Assembly (NCBI GenBank): GCA_947650005.1 | Contig: CANSTU010000007.1 | Location: 1-64,000 of the forward strand | Direction of reading: 5' to 3' | DNA: 64,000 nt | From: an uncultured Lachnospiraceae bacterium | GTDB taxonomy: Bacteria; Bacillota; Clostridia; Lachnospirales; Lachnospiraceae | The notes under the pieces: generated by a model | The model's input: the letters and a program-made list of their open reading frames with translations, nothing else | Database searches by the model: none | What the model was told of the DNA's origin: nothing | Made by a program: the position numbers and the translations under genes | Shown: one piece after another, positions 2,171 to 59,061 of the stretch | Layout: each line of letters opens with the position of its first letter | Numbering within the stretch: the stretch's first letter is position 1

Positions 2171-2471
2171 CAGAGGAACCGCCTTTCAACAGCAGCTGCC
2201 CCAGCCTGCCGGGACTTTGCCCACAGTGAAACGGCCCAGGGAGAGGTGCGGAGGCCGTGCTATGTTTTTGAACGCATTTCACGCCATGGAGACGAGACAT
2301 GCTTCCCTGGAGGGGCGTTGCCCGACAGAAAAGCGGCCATGGCTCATCGAAACGCCCGACGCGACGGCGTTCAAAAACATAGCACGGGCTCCGCGCCTCT
2401 CCCTGGGCCGTTTTACTGCGGGCAAAGTCCCGGCAGACTGGGGCAGCTGCTGTTGAAAGGCGGTTCCTCTG
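2171..2471 (+). repeat. Long-inverted-repeat element copy 1: 105-nt arms (2171-2275 / 2367-2471) around a 91-nt core
   Basis: Arms align without gaps with 5 mismatches in 105. The core is homologous to copies at 33735-34056 and 57626-57830. Confidence 0.9.
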
Positions 2472-3173: not shown

Positions 3174-4928
3174 ATGAAACTGTCAGCATTGACTGGGGAG
3201 CGTTTTCGGGAAACTCCCTCCGATTGTGTCATTGAAAGCCACGCTTTCATGCTCCGGGGAGGGTATATGAAATACGTTGCAAACGGAATCTATTCCGTTC
3301 TGCCTCCCCTGAAACGGATCACGGACAAAATTGAAAGAATCATCCGAGAGGAAATGGATGCCTTAGGCGGACAGGAGGTTTTATTTCCCGTAGCGCTCCC
3401 CGCATCCCTCTGGGAAGAATCCGGCCGTCTGCAGACCGTGGGACGGGAGCTTTTGCGCTTCACTGACCGAGGCGGCGCCGATATGGTTCTGGGGATGACC
3501 CATGAGGAAGCAGCCGTCCATCTGGTACGGGAATATGCCTCCAGCCATTCCCGCTATCCTTTCATGATCTATCAGATACAGACCAAATTCCGGGACGAGG
3601 CCAGGCCCAGGGCCGGCCTGATCCGGGTAAGGGAGTTTATCATGAAAGACGCCTATTCCTTCCATACCTCCCAAGAAGACCTGGATGCCTTCTATCAGCG
3701 CTGCCTGCAGGCCTATGAGCGGATTTTCGCCCGCGCTGGAATTCCTCAGGTAGTTTCTGTCGCCTCGGATTCCGGCATGATGGGCGGCAGCCTTTCCCAC
3801 GAATTCATGCTGCTCACCTCCGCCGGGGAGGACAGCATCGTCCTCTGCCCGCACTGCGGATACCGCGCCAATATGGAAGCCGCGGAATGCATCGTTTCGG
3901 ACACCCCAAATCAGACGATGCAGGAGCTAGCGCCCATACACACACCGGATATCTGTACCATTCAGGATCTGTGCAGCCATTTGGACATACCGCCCAAAAA
4001 CCTATGCAAAGCCGTTGTCTATCAAAGGAACCGGGACGATTCCTACGTGATCGTTTTTCTGCGTGGGGATTTAGAAATCAATGAAACCAAACTCACCAAT
4101 CTCCTCGGGGAAGGGATTCATCCTGCCCTAATTACGGAGGATAGCGGCCTGGAAGCCGGTTTCATCGGCCCCTGCGGCCTCTCCTGCGAGAATCCTTCTT
4201 CTCCGAATGCAAAGCACACCGTGCTCTATGACCGATCCCTGCAGGGATCCTGCGGATTGGCCTGCGGAGCCAATCGGAAAGACTTCCATTTCACCGGGCT
4301 TTGCATGGAAAGGGACTGCCCCGATGTATGCTATCACGACCTGGCAAAGGCCGTTTTGGGAGGGACCTGTCCTGCCTGCCGGAAAATCGGCATCAAGGTT
4401 TCACGAGGAATCGAAGTGGGCAATATTTTTCAACTGGGCGCCAAATATACCCACGCAATGCACATGCAGTACATGGATGAAAACGGCGCCCTCAGGGAAC
4501 CTCTGATGGGCTGCTACGGCATCGGCATCGGACGCCTCGCCGCCTCCGTCTGTGAGGCGTCCCACGACGAATTCGGCCCCATCTGGCCCATCAGCATCGC
4601 CCCCTGGCAGGTTCATTTATGCTGTTTGAGAAGCGACAACGAACACGTACATTCTCAGGCGGACAGCCTGTATAATATGCTGCAAGAACAAGGGCTGGAG
4701 GTTCTCTACGACGACAGGGCCGTCAGCGCCGGCGTCATGTTTTCCGACGCAGATCTTCTGGGCGTACCCATACGGCTCACTGTGAGCCCCCGCAACTATA
4801 AGGAAGGGTGCGTGGAACTCTCCCTGCGTCAGGATAAATCCATTTCTGCCAAAATCCCGATGGACGAAGTCCTTCTCCGTGTTATGGAAACGATAAGCAG
4901 GCTGAAGGAGGAGTGCCGTCCGGCCTGA
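3174..4928 (+). CDS. proS: Prolyl-tRNA synthetase (bacterial type)
   Basis: Full-length 584 aa with class II motifs (FRDEARPRAGLIRVREFIMKDAYSFH, GCYGIGIGRLAASVCE); T-box upstream. Confidence 0.97.
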   Translation: MKLSALTGERFRETPSDCVIESHAFMLRGGYMKYVANGIYSVLPPLKRITDKIERIIREEMDALGGQEVLFPVALPASLWEESGRLQTVGRELLRFTDRGGADMVLGMTHEEAAVHLVREYASSHSRYPFMIYQIQTKFRDEARPRAGLIRVREFIMKDAYSFHTSQEDLDAFYQRCLQAYERIFARAGIPQVVSVASDSGMMGGSLSHEFMLLTSAGEDSIVLCPHCGYRANMEAAECIVSDTPNQTMQELAPIHTPDICTIQDLCSHLDIPPKNLCKAVVYQRNRDDSYVIVFLRGDLEINETKLTNLLGEGIHPALITEDSGLEAGFIGPCGLSCENPSSPNAKHTVLYDRSLQGSCGLACGANRKDFHFTGLCMERDCPDVCYHDLAKAVLGGTCPACRKIGIKVSRGIEVGNIFQLGAKYTHAMHMQYMDENGALREPLMGCYGIGIGRLAASVCEASHDEFGPIWPISIAPWQVHLCCLRSDNEHVHSQADSLYNMLQEQGLEVLYDDRAVSAGVMFSDADLLGVPIRLTVSPRNYKEGCVELSLRQDKSISAKIPMDEVLLRVMETISRLKEECRPA

Positions 4929-5190
4929 ACTCGCATGGACAATGCCCAATCCGGGAATAACGGCCGCCCATGCATACCAAACGCATGAACGGTGCAGTCT
5001 GCTCCGCCATCTCTTCCCTGTCTGCTCCTAAACCGCAGGCGAACGCGGTAGCCTCCTTTTTGACCGAATCCTACCGCATTCGCCTGCAATCCGGGAGCAG
5101 ACAGGCAGAGACAGCGGGCACGGCCGAACCATGCGTCTGCCATTCCTCTATAGAAACGGATTCCTGTGGTCTCTCACCCCATTGTCTCCA

Positions 5191-5335
5191 TGACCCAATG
5201 CGCCAGAATCTCGCATCCCATTGCCCCCTTGGCTCAATGCGCCAGAATCTCGCACCCCATTTCCCCTTGGCTCAATGCGCCAGAATCTTGCACCCCATTT
5301 CCCCTTGGTTCAGTGCGCCAGAATCTCGCATCCCT
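5191..5335 (-). repeat. Four tandem 38-39 bp units derived from the 3' end of map
   Basis: CAATGCGCCAGAATCTCGCAYCCCATTKCCCCTTGG, with the shared CGCCAGAATC at 5201, 5240, 5278 and 5316. The unit includes the map C-terminal codons CEILAH-stop. Confidence 0.85.
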
Positions 5336-6182
5336 CTTCAGTCACCAGAATCATGGCCTCCCACTGGGCGGACGGCTTCCCGTCCTCCGTATAGACGGTC
5401 CATCCGTCCTCGTCATCCACATAGATTTCTGCCGTCCCCATATTCACCATAGGCTCAATGGTAAAAATCATCCCAGGAACCATCAACATTTCCGTTCCCT
5501 TCGGCGCCACATAACTGACAAAGGGATCCTCATGGAATTCCAGCCCCACTCCGTGGCCGCCGATCTCCTCCACCACGCTGTAACCGTTTAACTTTGCATG
5601 GCTATTCACCGCATCCGCCATGTCTCCCAAAAAGGCCCAGGGTTTCACCGCGGCGATCCCCTTCTCCATACACTCCCTGGCCACGCGCACCAAGCGCGCA
5701 TCCTCCTCCTTCACGTTCCCTATACAGAACATTCTCGACGAGTCCCCGAAATATCCCCCGTAAATCGTGGACACATCCACATTTACGATATCCCCGTCTT
5801 TCAAAACCACCTTTTCACTCGGAATGCCATGACATACCTGGTTTCCAACGGATGTACATACACTTTTAGGGAATCCGTCATAGCCCAAAGGGGCCGGTAT
5901 TCCCCCCAGTTCCCTCGTTTTCTCGTCTACCATCCTGTCTATCTGCGCCGTAGTCATCCCTTCGCAAATCTGTTGTCCTACATAATCCAGAATAGAGGTA
6001 TTGATCCGGCCGCTTTTACGGATTCCCTCGATCTGCTGCGCGTTCTTTATCATCCCGTATCCCGGCACCATATATCCCTGCAGCTCGTAGTGCCGGATTT
6101 TCTCGTCAAAAGCCGCATGACACTGCTTGTATTTCCTGCCGCTTTTACACCAGCAAGGATCGTTCCTTCCCATTTTTAACAT
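5310..6182 (-). CDS. map: Type I methionine aminopeptidase with N-terminal SEC-C zinc motif
   Basis: NDPCWCKSGRKYKQCH SEC-C motif; MetAP motifs GYDGFPKSVCTSVGNQVCHGIP, GHGVGLEFHEDP, FTIEPMV. Confidence 0.95.
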   Translation of the reverse strand: MLKMGRNDPCWCKSGRKYKQCHAAFDEKIRHYELQGYMVPGYGMIKNAQQIEGIRKSGRINTSILDYVGQQICEGMTTAQIDRMVDEKTRELGGIPAPLGYDGFPKSVCTSVGNQVCHGIPSEKVVLKDGDIVNVDVSTIYGGYFGDSSRMFCIGNVKEEDARLVRVARECMEKGIAAVKPWAFLGDMADAVNSHAKLNGYSVVEEIGGHGVGLEFHEDPFVSYVAPKGTEMLMVPGMIFTIEPMVNMGTAEIYVDDEDGWTVYTEDGKPSAQWEAMILVTEEGCEILAH

Positions 6183-6257
6183 CTCTATCCCCTCTCTATC
6201 GCAGGATTTGCTTGCGATACTGCCGCCAGTAAAGGTTTAACGAAGATCCAAACCTGC

Positions 6258-6298
6258 TTCCATCTGCCTGCTTTATCAGGCACAAATCCATGGGTAAC
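6258..6298 (-). repeat. RBS-hairpin-like module between the ABC-F gene and map
   Basis: Minus strand: CCATGGATTTGTGCCTGATAAAGCAGGCAGATGGAAG. Confidence 0.6.
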
Positions 6299-8530: not shown

Positions 8531-8639
8531 CAAAGAGGCGCGCAGATGAGAGCACCCTGATTTGTCTGCCCGCTCAAGCGCGCAGATGGGATCGCCCTAA
8601 TTTATACGCGCGCTAAGGCGCGCAGATGGGAGCTAAATT
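8531..8639 (+). repeat. RBS-hairpin module, ~3 tandem ~40-bp units, upstream of SIMPL-domain gene
   Basis: CCCTGATTTGTCTGCCCGCTCAAGCGCGCAGATGGGATCG / CCCTAATTTATACGCGCGCTAAGGCGCGCAGATGGGAGCTAAATT-ATG, with a partial unit before them. Confidence 0.75.
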
Positions 8640-33734: not shown

Positions 33735-34056
33735 ACGCCAAACACAAAAACGGTTCGATAACACTCCCTTTGGGCCCCTCCCAGGATGCGGGTGGAAACG
33801 GTACGCTCCGGCACGATAGAAAGGGGGAGGTCATGGATCTTTTCAGGTGCCTTCATGCCATGAAGAGGAGACCTGCTTCCCAGGAGGGGCGCCCCCGACT
33901 GGGAGGCGTCCTGGGCTCCTCGGAATGTCGGGCGTGAGCGCGACCGAAAAGATCCATGGCTTTCCTCCTTTCTTCCGTACCGGAGCGTACCGTTTCCATC
34001 TGCATCCTGGAAGGGGCCCAAAGGGAGTGTTATCGAACCGTCCTTGCGTTTGGCAT
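33735..34056 (+). repeat. Long-inverted-repeat element copy 2: ~110-nt arms (33735-33844 / 33946-34056) around a ~101-nt core
   Basis: Arms ~89% identical by eye with one small indel; core homologous to copies 1 and 3. Confidence 0.9.
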
Positions 34057-34876: not shown

Positions 34877-35047
34877 AAACTCCCCTCTGCCCGCTTTAGC
34901 GGGCACTCTATTCAGGATCGGGAAATCTCTGATTTCACGTTAACTCCCCTCTGTCCACTTTTAGAGGGCACTCGCGTCAAAATTTTGATCCCATCCGCCT
35001 GCTGTGGCAGGCATACAAGTCTGGACCGGGAAATCGCAGATTTCATG
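34877..35047 (-). repeat. RBS-hairpin module array (about three units) between the two ABC permease genes
   Basis: Minus strand: GTGCCCGCTAAAGCGGGCAGAGGGGAGTTT, GTGCCCTCTAAAAGTGGACAGAGGGGAGTTAACGTGAAATCAGAGATTTCCCGATC, GCCTGCCACAGCAGGCGGATGGGATC. Confidence 0.7.
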
Positions 35048-36868: not shown

Positions 36869-37000
36869 ATCCTAACTCCCATCTGCCTGTTTTAGCAGGT
36901 AGACAAATCGTGATCCGGTAATCGCTGATTTCACACGCTCTCCCGCTTGCCCGCTTTAACGGACACCCAAATCATGATCGGGTAATCGCTGATTTCACGC
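36869..37000 (-). repeat. RBS-hairpin module array (two ~65-bp units) upstream of the ABC ATPase gene
   Basis: Minus strand: GCGTGAAATCAGCGATTACCCGATCATGATTTGGGTGTCCGTTAAAGCGGGCAAGCGGGAGAGCGTGTGAAATCAGCGATTACCGGATCACGATTTGTCTACCTGCTAAAACAGGCAGATGGGAGTTAGG. Confidence 0.75.
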
Positions 37001-48811: not shown

Positions 48812-48814
48812 CTT

Positions 48815-48995
48815 TAACTCCCATCTGCGCGCTTTAGCGCACGTACAAATCAGGGGAAGGGAAAGATTTGATCAATCTTTCACTCCTTCCATCTATGTTA
48901 CCCTTCCTGCCCGCTTTATCGGGCGCTCTCACCAAAATCGAGAAATCGACGCCTTCACGCTAACCTTCCCGACGCGTCCTTTCATGCAGGCAATT
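48815..48995 (-). repeat. RBS-hairpin modules (about three units) upstream of the GH4 gene
   Basis: Minus strand: CTGATTTGTACGTGCGCTAAAGCGCGCAGATGGGAGTTAAAGATG, and an upstream GCCCGATAAAGCGGGCAGGAAGGGTA unit. Confidence 0.7.
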
Positions 48996-56324: not shown

Positions 56325-57251
56325 TCAGATCAAGGAATACCCGCGGACTTTTTTTGAAATCCAGTTTACAAGACCCAGCATAAAGATACTTACCACGGAC
56401 TTGAGCATACCGATTACGATGGAATAGGAATACAGCCCCGCCCTGAATGCAATCTTGTATACATAGTAATCGAGAACCTCGATCCTGTCCGACACCATGC
56501 TGCTCCAGAAAACATAATACTGTTCAAACCCGTTGCTCAGTAAATTGCTGATGCTAAGAAGCAGCAGTACCAGAAAGGTAGGCATGATCCCCGGAATCGT
56601 GATGTGCCTGATCAGCTGAAGCTTATTGGCTCCGTCCACCTTTGCCGCATCATAAAGCTCCGCGTCGATGCCCGTTATCGCCGCCAGGTAGATGATGCTG
56701 TCCCAGCCCAGGTTCTTCCAGATACTGAGAGCCAGTTGAAATCCCCATACATGCTCCCCGTCTGCGATCAAGCCTCCAGGAGAGGTCGGTAAATGCAGCA
56801 TTCCCAGAATCTGATTAAACAGCCCGTGCGCCGAAAAAACAGTGAACGCCACGCCGAACACCACGATCCAGCTGATAAAATTGGGCAGCGTAGCCACCGT
56901 CTGCACCACCTTCTGCGTCCTCTTCCCGCGTATCTCGTTCAGCATGATCGCAAATGCCACGGGAAGCGGCGACGCCGCCAGATTCAGAAGGCTCATAGCC
57001 AGTGTGTTACGCAAGACCCGGATGATCTGATCATCCTGAAATAATCGGATGAAATTCTTCATGCCCACGAACTTCGCATCCGTGTAAAACTGCCCCACCT
57101 TATAATCTGCAAAGGCATAATACCAGCCCAGAAGAGGCGCATAAGAAAAGGCAAAAATAAAAACCATGAACGGTATTGCCATGAACAGATATCTTATCCC
57201 CCGCCTCTTATGGCCATCCATTTTCCCCCATACCACTGATCTTTTTTTCAC
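56325..57251 (-). CDS. Carbohydrate ABC transporter permease (LplB/YtcP-like)
   Basis: YDAAKVDGANKLQLIRHITIPGIMPTFLVLLLL. GTG start after GGGAGTTCAT preferred. Confidence 0.92.
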   Translation of the reverse strand: MKKRSVVWGKMDGHKRRGIRYLFMAIPFMVFIFAFSYAPLLGWYYAFADYKVGQFYTDAKFVGMKNFIRLFQDDQIIRVLRNTLAMSLLNLAASPLPVAFAIMLNEIRGKRTQKVVQTVATLPNFISWIVVFGVAFTVFSAHGLFNQILGMLHLPTSPGGLIADGEHVWGFQLALSIWKNLGWDSIIYLAAITGIDAELYDAAKVDGANKLQLIRHITIPGIMPTFLVLLLLSISNLLSNGFEQYYVFWSSMVSDRIEVLDYYVYKIAFRAGLYSYSIVIGMLKSVVSIFMLGLVNWISKKVRGYSLI

Positions 57252-57252
57252 A

Positions 57253-57292
57253 TGAACTCCCATCTGCCCGCCTTGGCAGGCGCTCAAATCAA
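57253..57292 (-). repeat. RBS-hairpin module upstream of the ABC permease gene
   Basis: Minus strand: GATTTGAGCGCCTGCCAAGGCGGGCAGATGGGAGTTCAT-GTG. Confidence 0.75.
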
Positions 57293-57374
57293 CCAAAAGA
57301 AACTCCCATTCCTGGAAAACAACAGATTCCACGATATGCCCCTTTTTCTTTATGATTGCCTCACATCAATTATT

Positions 57375-57402: not shown

Positions 57403-57431
57403 ATTATAGCCTGCTCTTTTTTTAATGTCAA
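57403..57431 (-). promoter_or_regulatory. Consensus sigma70-type promoter of the ABC/GH operon
   Basis: Minus strand TTGACA-17 nt-TATAAT. Confidence 0.85.
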
Positions 57432-57625
57432 CAGATTTCTCATTTTTATGTATTTATATTTATGTATGCGGTTTTCGGCAAAGTGCAACGGTTCAAACAA
57501 GCCTAATTTGTTACATATCCAGCCATCAATCCCTCTGTTCAATGCCCCGCTGGATGTATGGCCGCCGCTACTGCCCAGTTACAATTTACGCTTCCTTGAC
57601 GTTTTGCAAATAGGTTAGAAAACCA

Positions 57626-57830
57626 GCCGGAGAGGCGAATCCCGCGGCAGGAGAGAGGCGGCGACGCCCTATTTTTGAGTGAATTTCGCGCCCTGTAAAT
57701 GAGACCTGTTTTCCTCGAAAGCCGTTTCCCTACAGGGAAGCGTTCAGGGCTCATCGCATTGTCCGGCGCGATGGCGCTCAGAAACAGGGCATGGCCGCTT
57801 CGCTCTTGTCACGGGACTCGCCTCTCCGGC
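57626..57830 (+). repeat. Long-inverted-repeat element copy 3: arms 57626-57692 / 57765-57830, decayed outer extension to ~57610-57846
   Basis: CCGGAGAGGCGAATCCCGCGGCAGG...GCCCTATTTTTGAGTG pairs with CGCTCAGAAACAGGGC...CACGGGACTCGCCTCTCCGG; core homologous to copies 1 and 2. Confidence 0.85.
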
Positions 57831-57912
57831 GTCCGTTCCCCAGTCTATACATGGCCCCAGTTCAGTAACCGATTGAAATATAAACTGCCAACCGGTTATT
57901 CTCATGCAGCCG

Positions 57913-59061
57913 TCATCCATCAACCCCTTCCATCAGGATCTCTCTGATCTTCCTGTCGATCAGCAGCCATGCCATTCCCACCAGCCCCACATCTTCCGAA
58001 CTTTCCCTGCACACAGGCGTATGCCCTCCATACATATCGCTGAGGCATCTGTTGACGGAATCAATCAGCGGCTGCCCCAGCGCCTCCACCATTTTTCCGC
58101 CTAAAATCACATTCTTACAATCCAAGCAGGCATTTATGTTATGGATGCACAGCGCGATCGTCCTGTCCATATAATGGCATATCTCTTCCCGTTCCTTCAG
58201 GGACAGCGGACGCCCGGAATTGATCACGTTTACGCCAAAGTTTTTCTCGATACTCCTCTGCCCAATCACATTTTCCAGCCATCCAGCCTCCTGTCCGTTG
58301 CACTGATAGTCCAGATCAAAGATCGTACTGCCGATCTCCCCACACATATATCGGCTGCCCCGTCTGAGCTTTCCGTCCAGGATGAGGCCCGCGCCCAATC
58401 CCGTACCGATGGAAACGAACAAAATATCATCCTTTTCTCTATATCCCCCGCTTCGGAACTCTCCGATTGCCTGCGCGTTGGTATCGTTTTCCACCATCAC
58501 GATCAGTTTATTCCCTGAAGACAACTCCTCCATATCCGGCACCATGGACAGCTCATCTTCCCGGCTTATCAAAGGCGCATTTGAGATCAGCTTCTTATCG
58601 TCGTCATAGATCACAGGTAGAGCGATTCCTAAGCCGAAAATCTGTTTCCTGGAAATACCTGCTTTTTTCAACAGGTCATCGATTAATTCCCTTTTGATTC
58701 GTTCCATGATATAGCTATAATCCGGTTTTATGCGTATCGTATCCTTGCAGAGAACCTTTCCAAGTATATCGACAATGCCCATACTGAGAAAATCGCCTTC
58801 CAGCACAAAACTGACTGCATACATATGCCGTGTGTTGATCTGAAGCATATGCGGTCTCCTGCCAATCGCCGTCTCCACTTCCCCCAGCATCACCACCAGC
58901 TCTTTTTCCAACAGGAAATTGATAATCTTAATCACCGTGGGAGGACTGATACCGGTCTGCTTCGTAATCTCCGCTTTTGATATCCTTTCCGTATTTTTTA
59001 TCAGTTGATAGACCTGCTGTCGGTTCATATACTTCAGATGGGACGCCACATATGTGTTCAT
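57913..59061 (-). CDS. ROK family transcriptional regulator
   Basis: N-terminal HTH (ISKAEITKQTGISPPTVIKIINFLL), ROK fold (VSIGTGLGAGLILDGKLRRGSRYMCGEIGSTIFD). Confidence 0.93.
   Translation of the reverse strand: MNTYVASHLKYMNRQQVYQLIKNTERISKAEITKQTGISPPTVIKIINFLLEKELVVMLGEVETAIGRRPHMLQINTRHMYAVSFVLEGDFLSMGIVDILGKVLCKDTIRIKPDYSYIMERIKRELIDDLLKKAGISRKQIFGLGIALPVIYDDDKKLISNAPLISREDELSMVPDMEELSSGNKLIVMVENDTNAQAIGEFRSGGYREKDDILFVSIGTGLGAGLILDGKLRRGSRYMCGEIGSTIFDLDYQCNGQEAGWLENVIGQRSIEKNFGVNVINSGRPLSLKEREEICHYMDRTIALCIHNINACLDCKNVILGGKMVEALGQPLIDSVNRCLSDMYGGHTPVCRESSEDVGLVGMAWLLIDRKIREILMEGVDG

Follow-up and report, generated by a model that had tools for sequence, protein, structure and literature searches.

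A partly decayed copy of a putative small mobile palindromic element with a conserved mispaired core in an uncultured Lachnospiraceae bacterium

Genomic context of the element

The DNA analyzed here, referred to as the window, is a stretch of 64,000 nucleotides from an uncultured Lachnospiraceae bacterium (assembly GCA_947650005.1, contig CANSTU010000007.1, positions 1 to 64,000). It contains three copies of a long palindromic repeat, the third of which (copy 3, plus strand) is located between two genes encoded on the minus strand, namely a ROK-family gene with a winged helix-turn-helix (57913..59061; Pfam PF00480, E 9.7e-28), the 3′ end of which faces the repeat, and an ABC transporter permease gene (56325..57332; Pfam PF00528, E 2.6e-18). 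The limits of traceable arm pairing, deduced from the arm alignment and from a self-match of 57626-57830 on the opposite strand, place the whole palindromic element at 57626..57830, so that the perfect sigma-70-like promoter of the ABC operon (TTGACA-17-TATAAT; 57403..57431, minus strand) lies outside of it. This arrangement agrees with the initial annotation of the locus.

The core of copy 3, including an outer helix of 13 bp, occupies positions 57669..57787 (plus strand; match to model R1, 97.3 bits). On the same strand, the left conserved block CCCTGTAAATGAGACCT, which is diverged here from the family form GCCATGNAGATGAGAC, was found at 57691..57707, and the right conserved block GGGCTCATCGCATTGTCCGGC (family form GGCTCATCGVAATGNNNGG) at 57747..57767. 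The strings previously quoted for its helices (TCGCGCC at 57686-57692, ATGAG-A-CCTG at 57699-57708, the proposed helices P3 and P4, and the 3′ partners) were confirmed at their positions, and the helices P1 and P2 are real. Its outer arms, already described as shorter and decayed, comprise 54 paired columns with 10 mismatches, whereas in 48 copies of the source genome the arms have a median length of 99 columns, 2.4% of all columns being mismatched. Copy 3 is among the most decayed copies, and its flanks gave a usable match in no congener.

Copy 1 (2171..2471, plus strand; core 2262-2380) and copy 2 (33737..34054, plus strand; core 33837-33953) possess arms that are 95% and 89% complementary, respectively. 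At the orthologous site of copy 1 in the congener G002, the full element is absent; the left intergenic side is not alignable, and a target duplication is unreadable there. Copy 1 ends just 5′ of a promoter-like sequence kept in G002, and a T-box leader (2603-2855, 98.5 bits) is located between this copy and the gene for a class II tRNA synthetase that possesses an editing domain (3174-4928). The window also harbors a second, shorter intergenic repeat family (approximately 37-59 nt, containing ...CTCCCATCTGCCTGCTTTAGCAGGCA... and a small palindrome of its own) at 34880-35046, 36873-36998, 48813-48855, 57254-57290, 8538-8637, and 6254-6290, parts of which match many places in G002, as well as a unit of 38-39 bp present in four tandem copies at 5178-5342.

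Conserved core, family size, and distribution

The repeat family features a core of approximately 103 nt, in which the inverted, non-identical blocks GCCATGNAGATGAGAC and GGCTCATCGVAATGNNNGG surround a self-pairing spacer, mostly 42-46 nt long; copy-specific arms of approximately 100 bp extend outside of the core. Over 136 distinct cores, the left sequence GCCATG-N-AGATGAGAC and the right sequence GGCTCATCG-V-AATG-NNN-GG were near-invariant, whereas the stems varied; in part, this conservation follows from the search pattern, which did not, however, prescribe the flanking GC and GG or the free variation at the N positions.

In the source genome (3.6 Mb), 41 places were recovered by BLAST, and a covariance model built from 34 cores matched at least 59 places (97 matches counting both strands). 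The proposal that the sequence represents a repeated long-hairpin element was thereby borne out far above chance. The elements are approximately 200-320 bp long. More than ten contigs of the source assembly (G000) end inside a core (e.g., C10, C29, C33, C53, C87, C93, C97, and C119), suggesting that the hairpins break the assembly and that the true copy number may be higher. Among the 27 source-genome copies with usable context, 25 were intergenic, two were unclear, and none was located inside an ORF according to a simple ORF model; these copies showed no fixed orientation relative to the neighboring genes.

The element was detected in four of twelve congeners (9, 2, 11, and 42 matches), the remaining eight being devoid of it. 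In public genomes, the degenerate core pattern matched at least 99 stretches, the listed records being Lachnospiraceae or Clostridia-level bins, including Eisenbergiella tayi and E. porci, Hungatella MAGs, Lachnospiraceae bacterium CE91-St56 (AP025576.1), and other gut MAGs. An element of one congener (G003) is identical to one of E. porci (L075 and L213), which makes Eisenbergiella the probable genus. Within the family, the pattern occurred in 7 of 397 genomes (5 of 334 genera), with no matches for a reversed control pattern, and a class-wide scan of 391 genomes yielded only two genomes with matches, both from within the family. A different genus yielded one diverged core that retains the conserved blocks but has almost no arms (L066 and L168 in G024; the same core sequence in G372 of that genus), which could be an old or domesticated copy. 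A phage or plasmid origin was rejected, since copy 1 had no blastn match in phage and plasmid records and the core pattern had none in viral contigs. Rfam recovered only the T-box elsewhere in the window, the best match for the element (E 4.4) being below its cut-off, and no description was found in a limited literature search; the family is thus undescribed.

Mobility and erosion of the copies

Evidence for mobility was obtained from a complete congener genome (G012), in which 25 young elements of 255-274 bp are bordered by A/T-rich target duplications of 7 bp, 14 of them exact. The mean match of the 7-bp flanks was 5.88, compared to 3.57 ± 0.22 for shuffled flanks. In the source-genome copies, target duplications were not detected, which is consistent with the age of these copies, and we infer movement in the source species from its relatives. 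A replication-strand bias was not evident in G012 (most extreme diametric split 15/42).

Ends of the form CTCAAACTTCGCAG are shared by 97 places in G012 (control: 1). Many further sites in this genome are eroded copies, i.e., palindromes of approximately 28-100 bp that retain the ends, e.g., CTCAAACTTCGCAGGTGCCAAGTTTGAG flanked on either side by TTTTTTA. Palindromic scars of 28-44 bp with element ends, some of them with a 7-bp duplication, were seen at L149, L157, L158, L161, and other G012 loci; these short scars are footprints of hairpin deletion. An autonomous transposon with CTCAAAC ends was considered and rejected, as each of the examined solo ends proved to be either an eroded copy or an isolated short match. 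Likewise, tandem genes next to a truncated element in G012 (L135, 1128-3414), which we take to resemble Rpn-family PD-(D/E)XK nucleases, look like a coincidental partner of the solo arm, because the site is still found empty in the second copy of the gene.

Shared terminal inverted repeats and constant duplications are what an ordinary MITE would leave behind, in which the terminal inverted repeats alone are read by a DDE transposase, the core being carried along as a passenger. This explanation appears unlikely, since it is the interior that is conserved between genomes and subfamilies, and the ends, although common within G012, are not common between the source-genome copies. Moreover, core-deleted copies keep the ends but resemble decay products rather than a spreading subfamily. 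A MITE would be expected to have conserved terminal inverted repeats in common with a parent transposon, but neither such repeats nor any parent transposon were found. The interior being most conserved and the ends least, in reverse of a standard MITE, suggests that the core is the recognized signal.

Cores arranged as inverted pairs were also observed, both in a mouse MAG and, to some extent, in Hungatella MAGs; their spacing is most often approximately 384, 410, or 735 bp, and their arm modules differ. In MGBC000181, they are located at L171, L181, L187, L190, L199, L227, and further loci, and the two hairpins of the pairs inspected carry different arm modules. Neither coding potential nor a coding ORF was seen in these composites.

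Fold of the core and origin of the covariation

Folded alone as RNA, the core of copy 3 was predicted to form a three-way junction of -45.6 kcal/mol, compared to -35.9 kcal/mol with the family rod forced. The well-resolved junction reported by the initial annotation is, according to this prediction, the fold of minimum energy only for the divergent copy 3 and not the family structure. The consensus fold does not branch but forms a single rod, in which 96.2% of cells were paired (shuffled: 87.1%; 34 cores), and the whole rod features 133 both-side changes vs. 35 in shuffled data, with none of 500 shuffles as high. Its apical stem alone reached 94.1% paired cells (shuffled: 88.1%) and 24 both-side changes (0/500). 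For P3 and P4, 77.9% of cells were paired vs. 78.0% shuffled, and their single both-side change was equaled in 373 of 500 shuffles (34 cores). The junction was therefore rejected as the family fold: when more homologues were included, covariation emerged along the rod but not in P3 and P4. The comparison of P4 with copies 1 and 2 had paired non-homologous positions of the alignment.

Covariation of this strength would be expected from a functional structured RNA (a riboregulator or sRNA) that is spread by mobility and the rod fold of which is maintained by selection. In favor of such an RNA, the same rod recurs with other stem sequences in other genera, its conserved internal loops are like RNA motifs (e.g., a tandem GA in the apical stem of many copies, among them copies from several other genera), and the plus-strand fold is the more stable one in 35 of 39 source-genome cores. 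However, the plus strand is more stable in just 7 of 17 G012 cores, and the lack of an Rfam match, the lack of a fixed orientation to adjacent genes, and the patchy presence among congeners also speak against it. Selection on an RNA strand is expected to leave more G.U than A.C mispairs, but the mismatches were strand-symmetric, with 38 G.U vs. 58 A.C in the arms and 17 vs. 23 in the inner core. Since G.U is not in excess, the covariation fits homogenization of the arms at the DNA level better than selection on RNA, and we regard the structured RNA as quite improbable.

The arms themselves provided further indications. Within the 48 source-genome copies, only 116 of 4781 arm columns (2.4%) were mismatched, whereas the same arm segment was merely 58% identical between copies (shuffled baseline: 42%; cores: 85%). 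In an orthologous pair (L176/L241; flank 90% identical), 5 of approximately 57 paired columns had changed identically on both sides. At L219 (RGIG3866, near position 2116, plus strand), one arm holds the last codons and the stop of the adjacent gene (...AQKKADLLSKL*), and the other arm contains their inverted duplicate. The arms of inverted repeats are known to be homogenized by template switching during replication (PMC8604942), a process through which hairpins can also arise and be preserved (PMC8794818). This process accounts for the mismatch pattern of the arms, the two-sided changes in orthologous copies, and the inverted gene end at L219. Arm complementarity is most likely kept by DNA copying in which one arm corrects the other, even though sequence alone does not fully distinguish template-switch homogenization from selection for pairing. 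The implied reading as a structured RNA was weakened by the free variation of the arms, by the missing G.U preference, and by the both-sided changes in orthologous arms; since the same signal is expected from DNA homogenization, the covariation of the rod should not be taken to prove that the RNA is functional.

On the predicted rod, the conserved blocks read as a symmetric GNA/GNA loop, an A.G mismatch, and a three-base bulge. These core mispairs persist, although spacer and arms are homogenized. Homogenization of the apical spacer indicates that the process reaches the tip, and the persistence of the mispairs in the blocks despite this process points to selection on the core. The core may thus be regarded as a putative cis-acting recognition site, probably read in its folded form; a double-stranded binding site is a possible alternative mode of recognition.

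Search for a mobilizing enzyme

In the source genome (97.7% complete), neither a Y1 transposase (PF01797) nor a reverse transcriptase (RVT_1, PF00078) was matched, so the REPIN/RAYT and retro routes are left without an enzyme in this genome today; the enzyme may, however, have been lost after the copies spread. No recurrent protein was found beside the element, the neighbors being only common transporters and regulators, along with spurious ORFs from within the element itself.

A REPIN-like mode of movement, with a RAYT / Y1 transposase working on single-stranded DNA in its folded state, would match the two inverted conserved blocks, the variable pairing spacer, and the compensatory changes known from REPINs (PMC3116915), but is very improbable in view of at least 59 copies in a genome without Y1_Tnp and of the 7-bp target duplications. 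Three congeners devoid of the element do possess a Y1_Tnp match, and all twelve have an RVT_1 match. Constant-length duplications of 7 bp are atypical of target-primed reverse transcription. Together with the absent RVT_1 match and the arm changes of orthologous copies that occurred without new insertion, this makes hardly credible a retro-element that would restore perfect arms with every insertion through reverse transcription of a folded RNA, although such a mechanism would account for perfect arms and the conserved folded core.

Proposed nature of the element and comparison with known systems

We consider it reasonably probable that copy 3, itself partly decayed, belongs to a family of small mobile DNA elements of Lachnospiraceae that are non-coding and non-autonomous. 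In this model, the arms would be kept complementary by template-switch (quasipalindrome) correction at the DNA level and not by selection on RNA, and the core would serve as the cis-acting signal for a mobilizing enzyme, probably in the form of a hairpin with mispairs, made either of extruded single-stranded DNA or of RNA. The fixed 7-bp duplication would point to a DDE-type transposase acting in trans, and the copies would erode through loss of the hairpin center. As a tentative and rather doubtful extension, the family might represent a new class of mobile elements, in which the signal is an internal conserved mispaired hairpin instead of the ends, the arms are free to drift, to homogenize, and to take up host flank, and the enzyme is neither a RAYT nor a reverse transcriptase.

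The family adds an undescribed mobile element, numerous in some gut Lachnospiraceae, e.g., Eisenbergiella and Hungatella. Carrier genomes, which can harbor tens of separate near-perfect palindromes, represent a natural experiment on how palindromes are created, corrected, and eroded in bacteria, and they caution that template switching of DNA, instead of RNA function, can underlie strong covariation in a bacterial repeat. The conserved mispaired core also offers a testable bait for an unknown recombinase.

Bacterial MITEs, e.g., MITEAba12, are reportedly small and non-autonomous, with terminal inverted repeats and target duplications of constant length. The element is likewise short, multi-copy, and without coding capacity, with a target duplication of constant length (7 bp in G012); unlike MITEs, it consists nearly entirely of inverted repeat, with a conserved interior, variable ends, and no parent transposon found. 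Integron attC sites are recognized as a folded strand and feature conserved mispaired or extrahelical bases, the remaining sequence being variable. The element resembles them in its conserved mispaired bases, its variable remaining sequence, and, by analogy, its presumed folded recognition, but differs in that its conserved part is interior and not at the ends, in having no link to an integrase, and in its target duplications. REPINs and REP sequences (PMC3116915) are similar in being short intergenic non-coding repeats with inverted conserved blocks, some of them forming higher-order clusters; in contrast to REPINs, the element is much longer (~200-320 bp), carries long free arms outside the blocks, shows 7-bp target duplications in G012, and resides in a source genome without a Y1 transposase. 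With template-switched quasipalindromes (PMC8604942, PMC8794818), it has in common that the arms change together and that hairpins are made or repaired by arm copying, but it comprises tens of dispersed mobile copies, and its core resists this process. Overall, the family is a variant of the MITE/REPIN kind.
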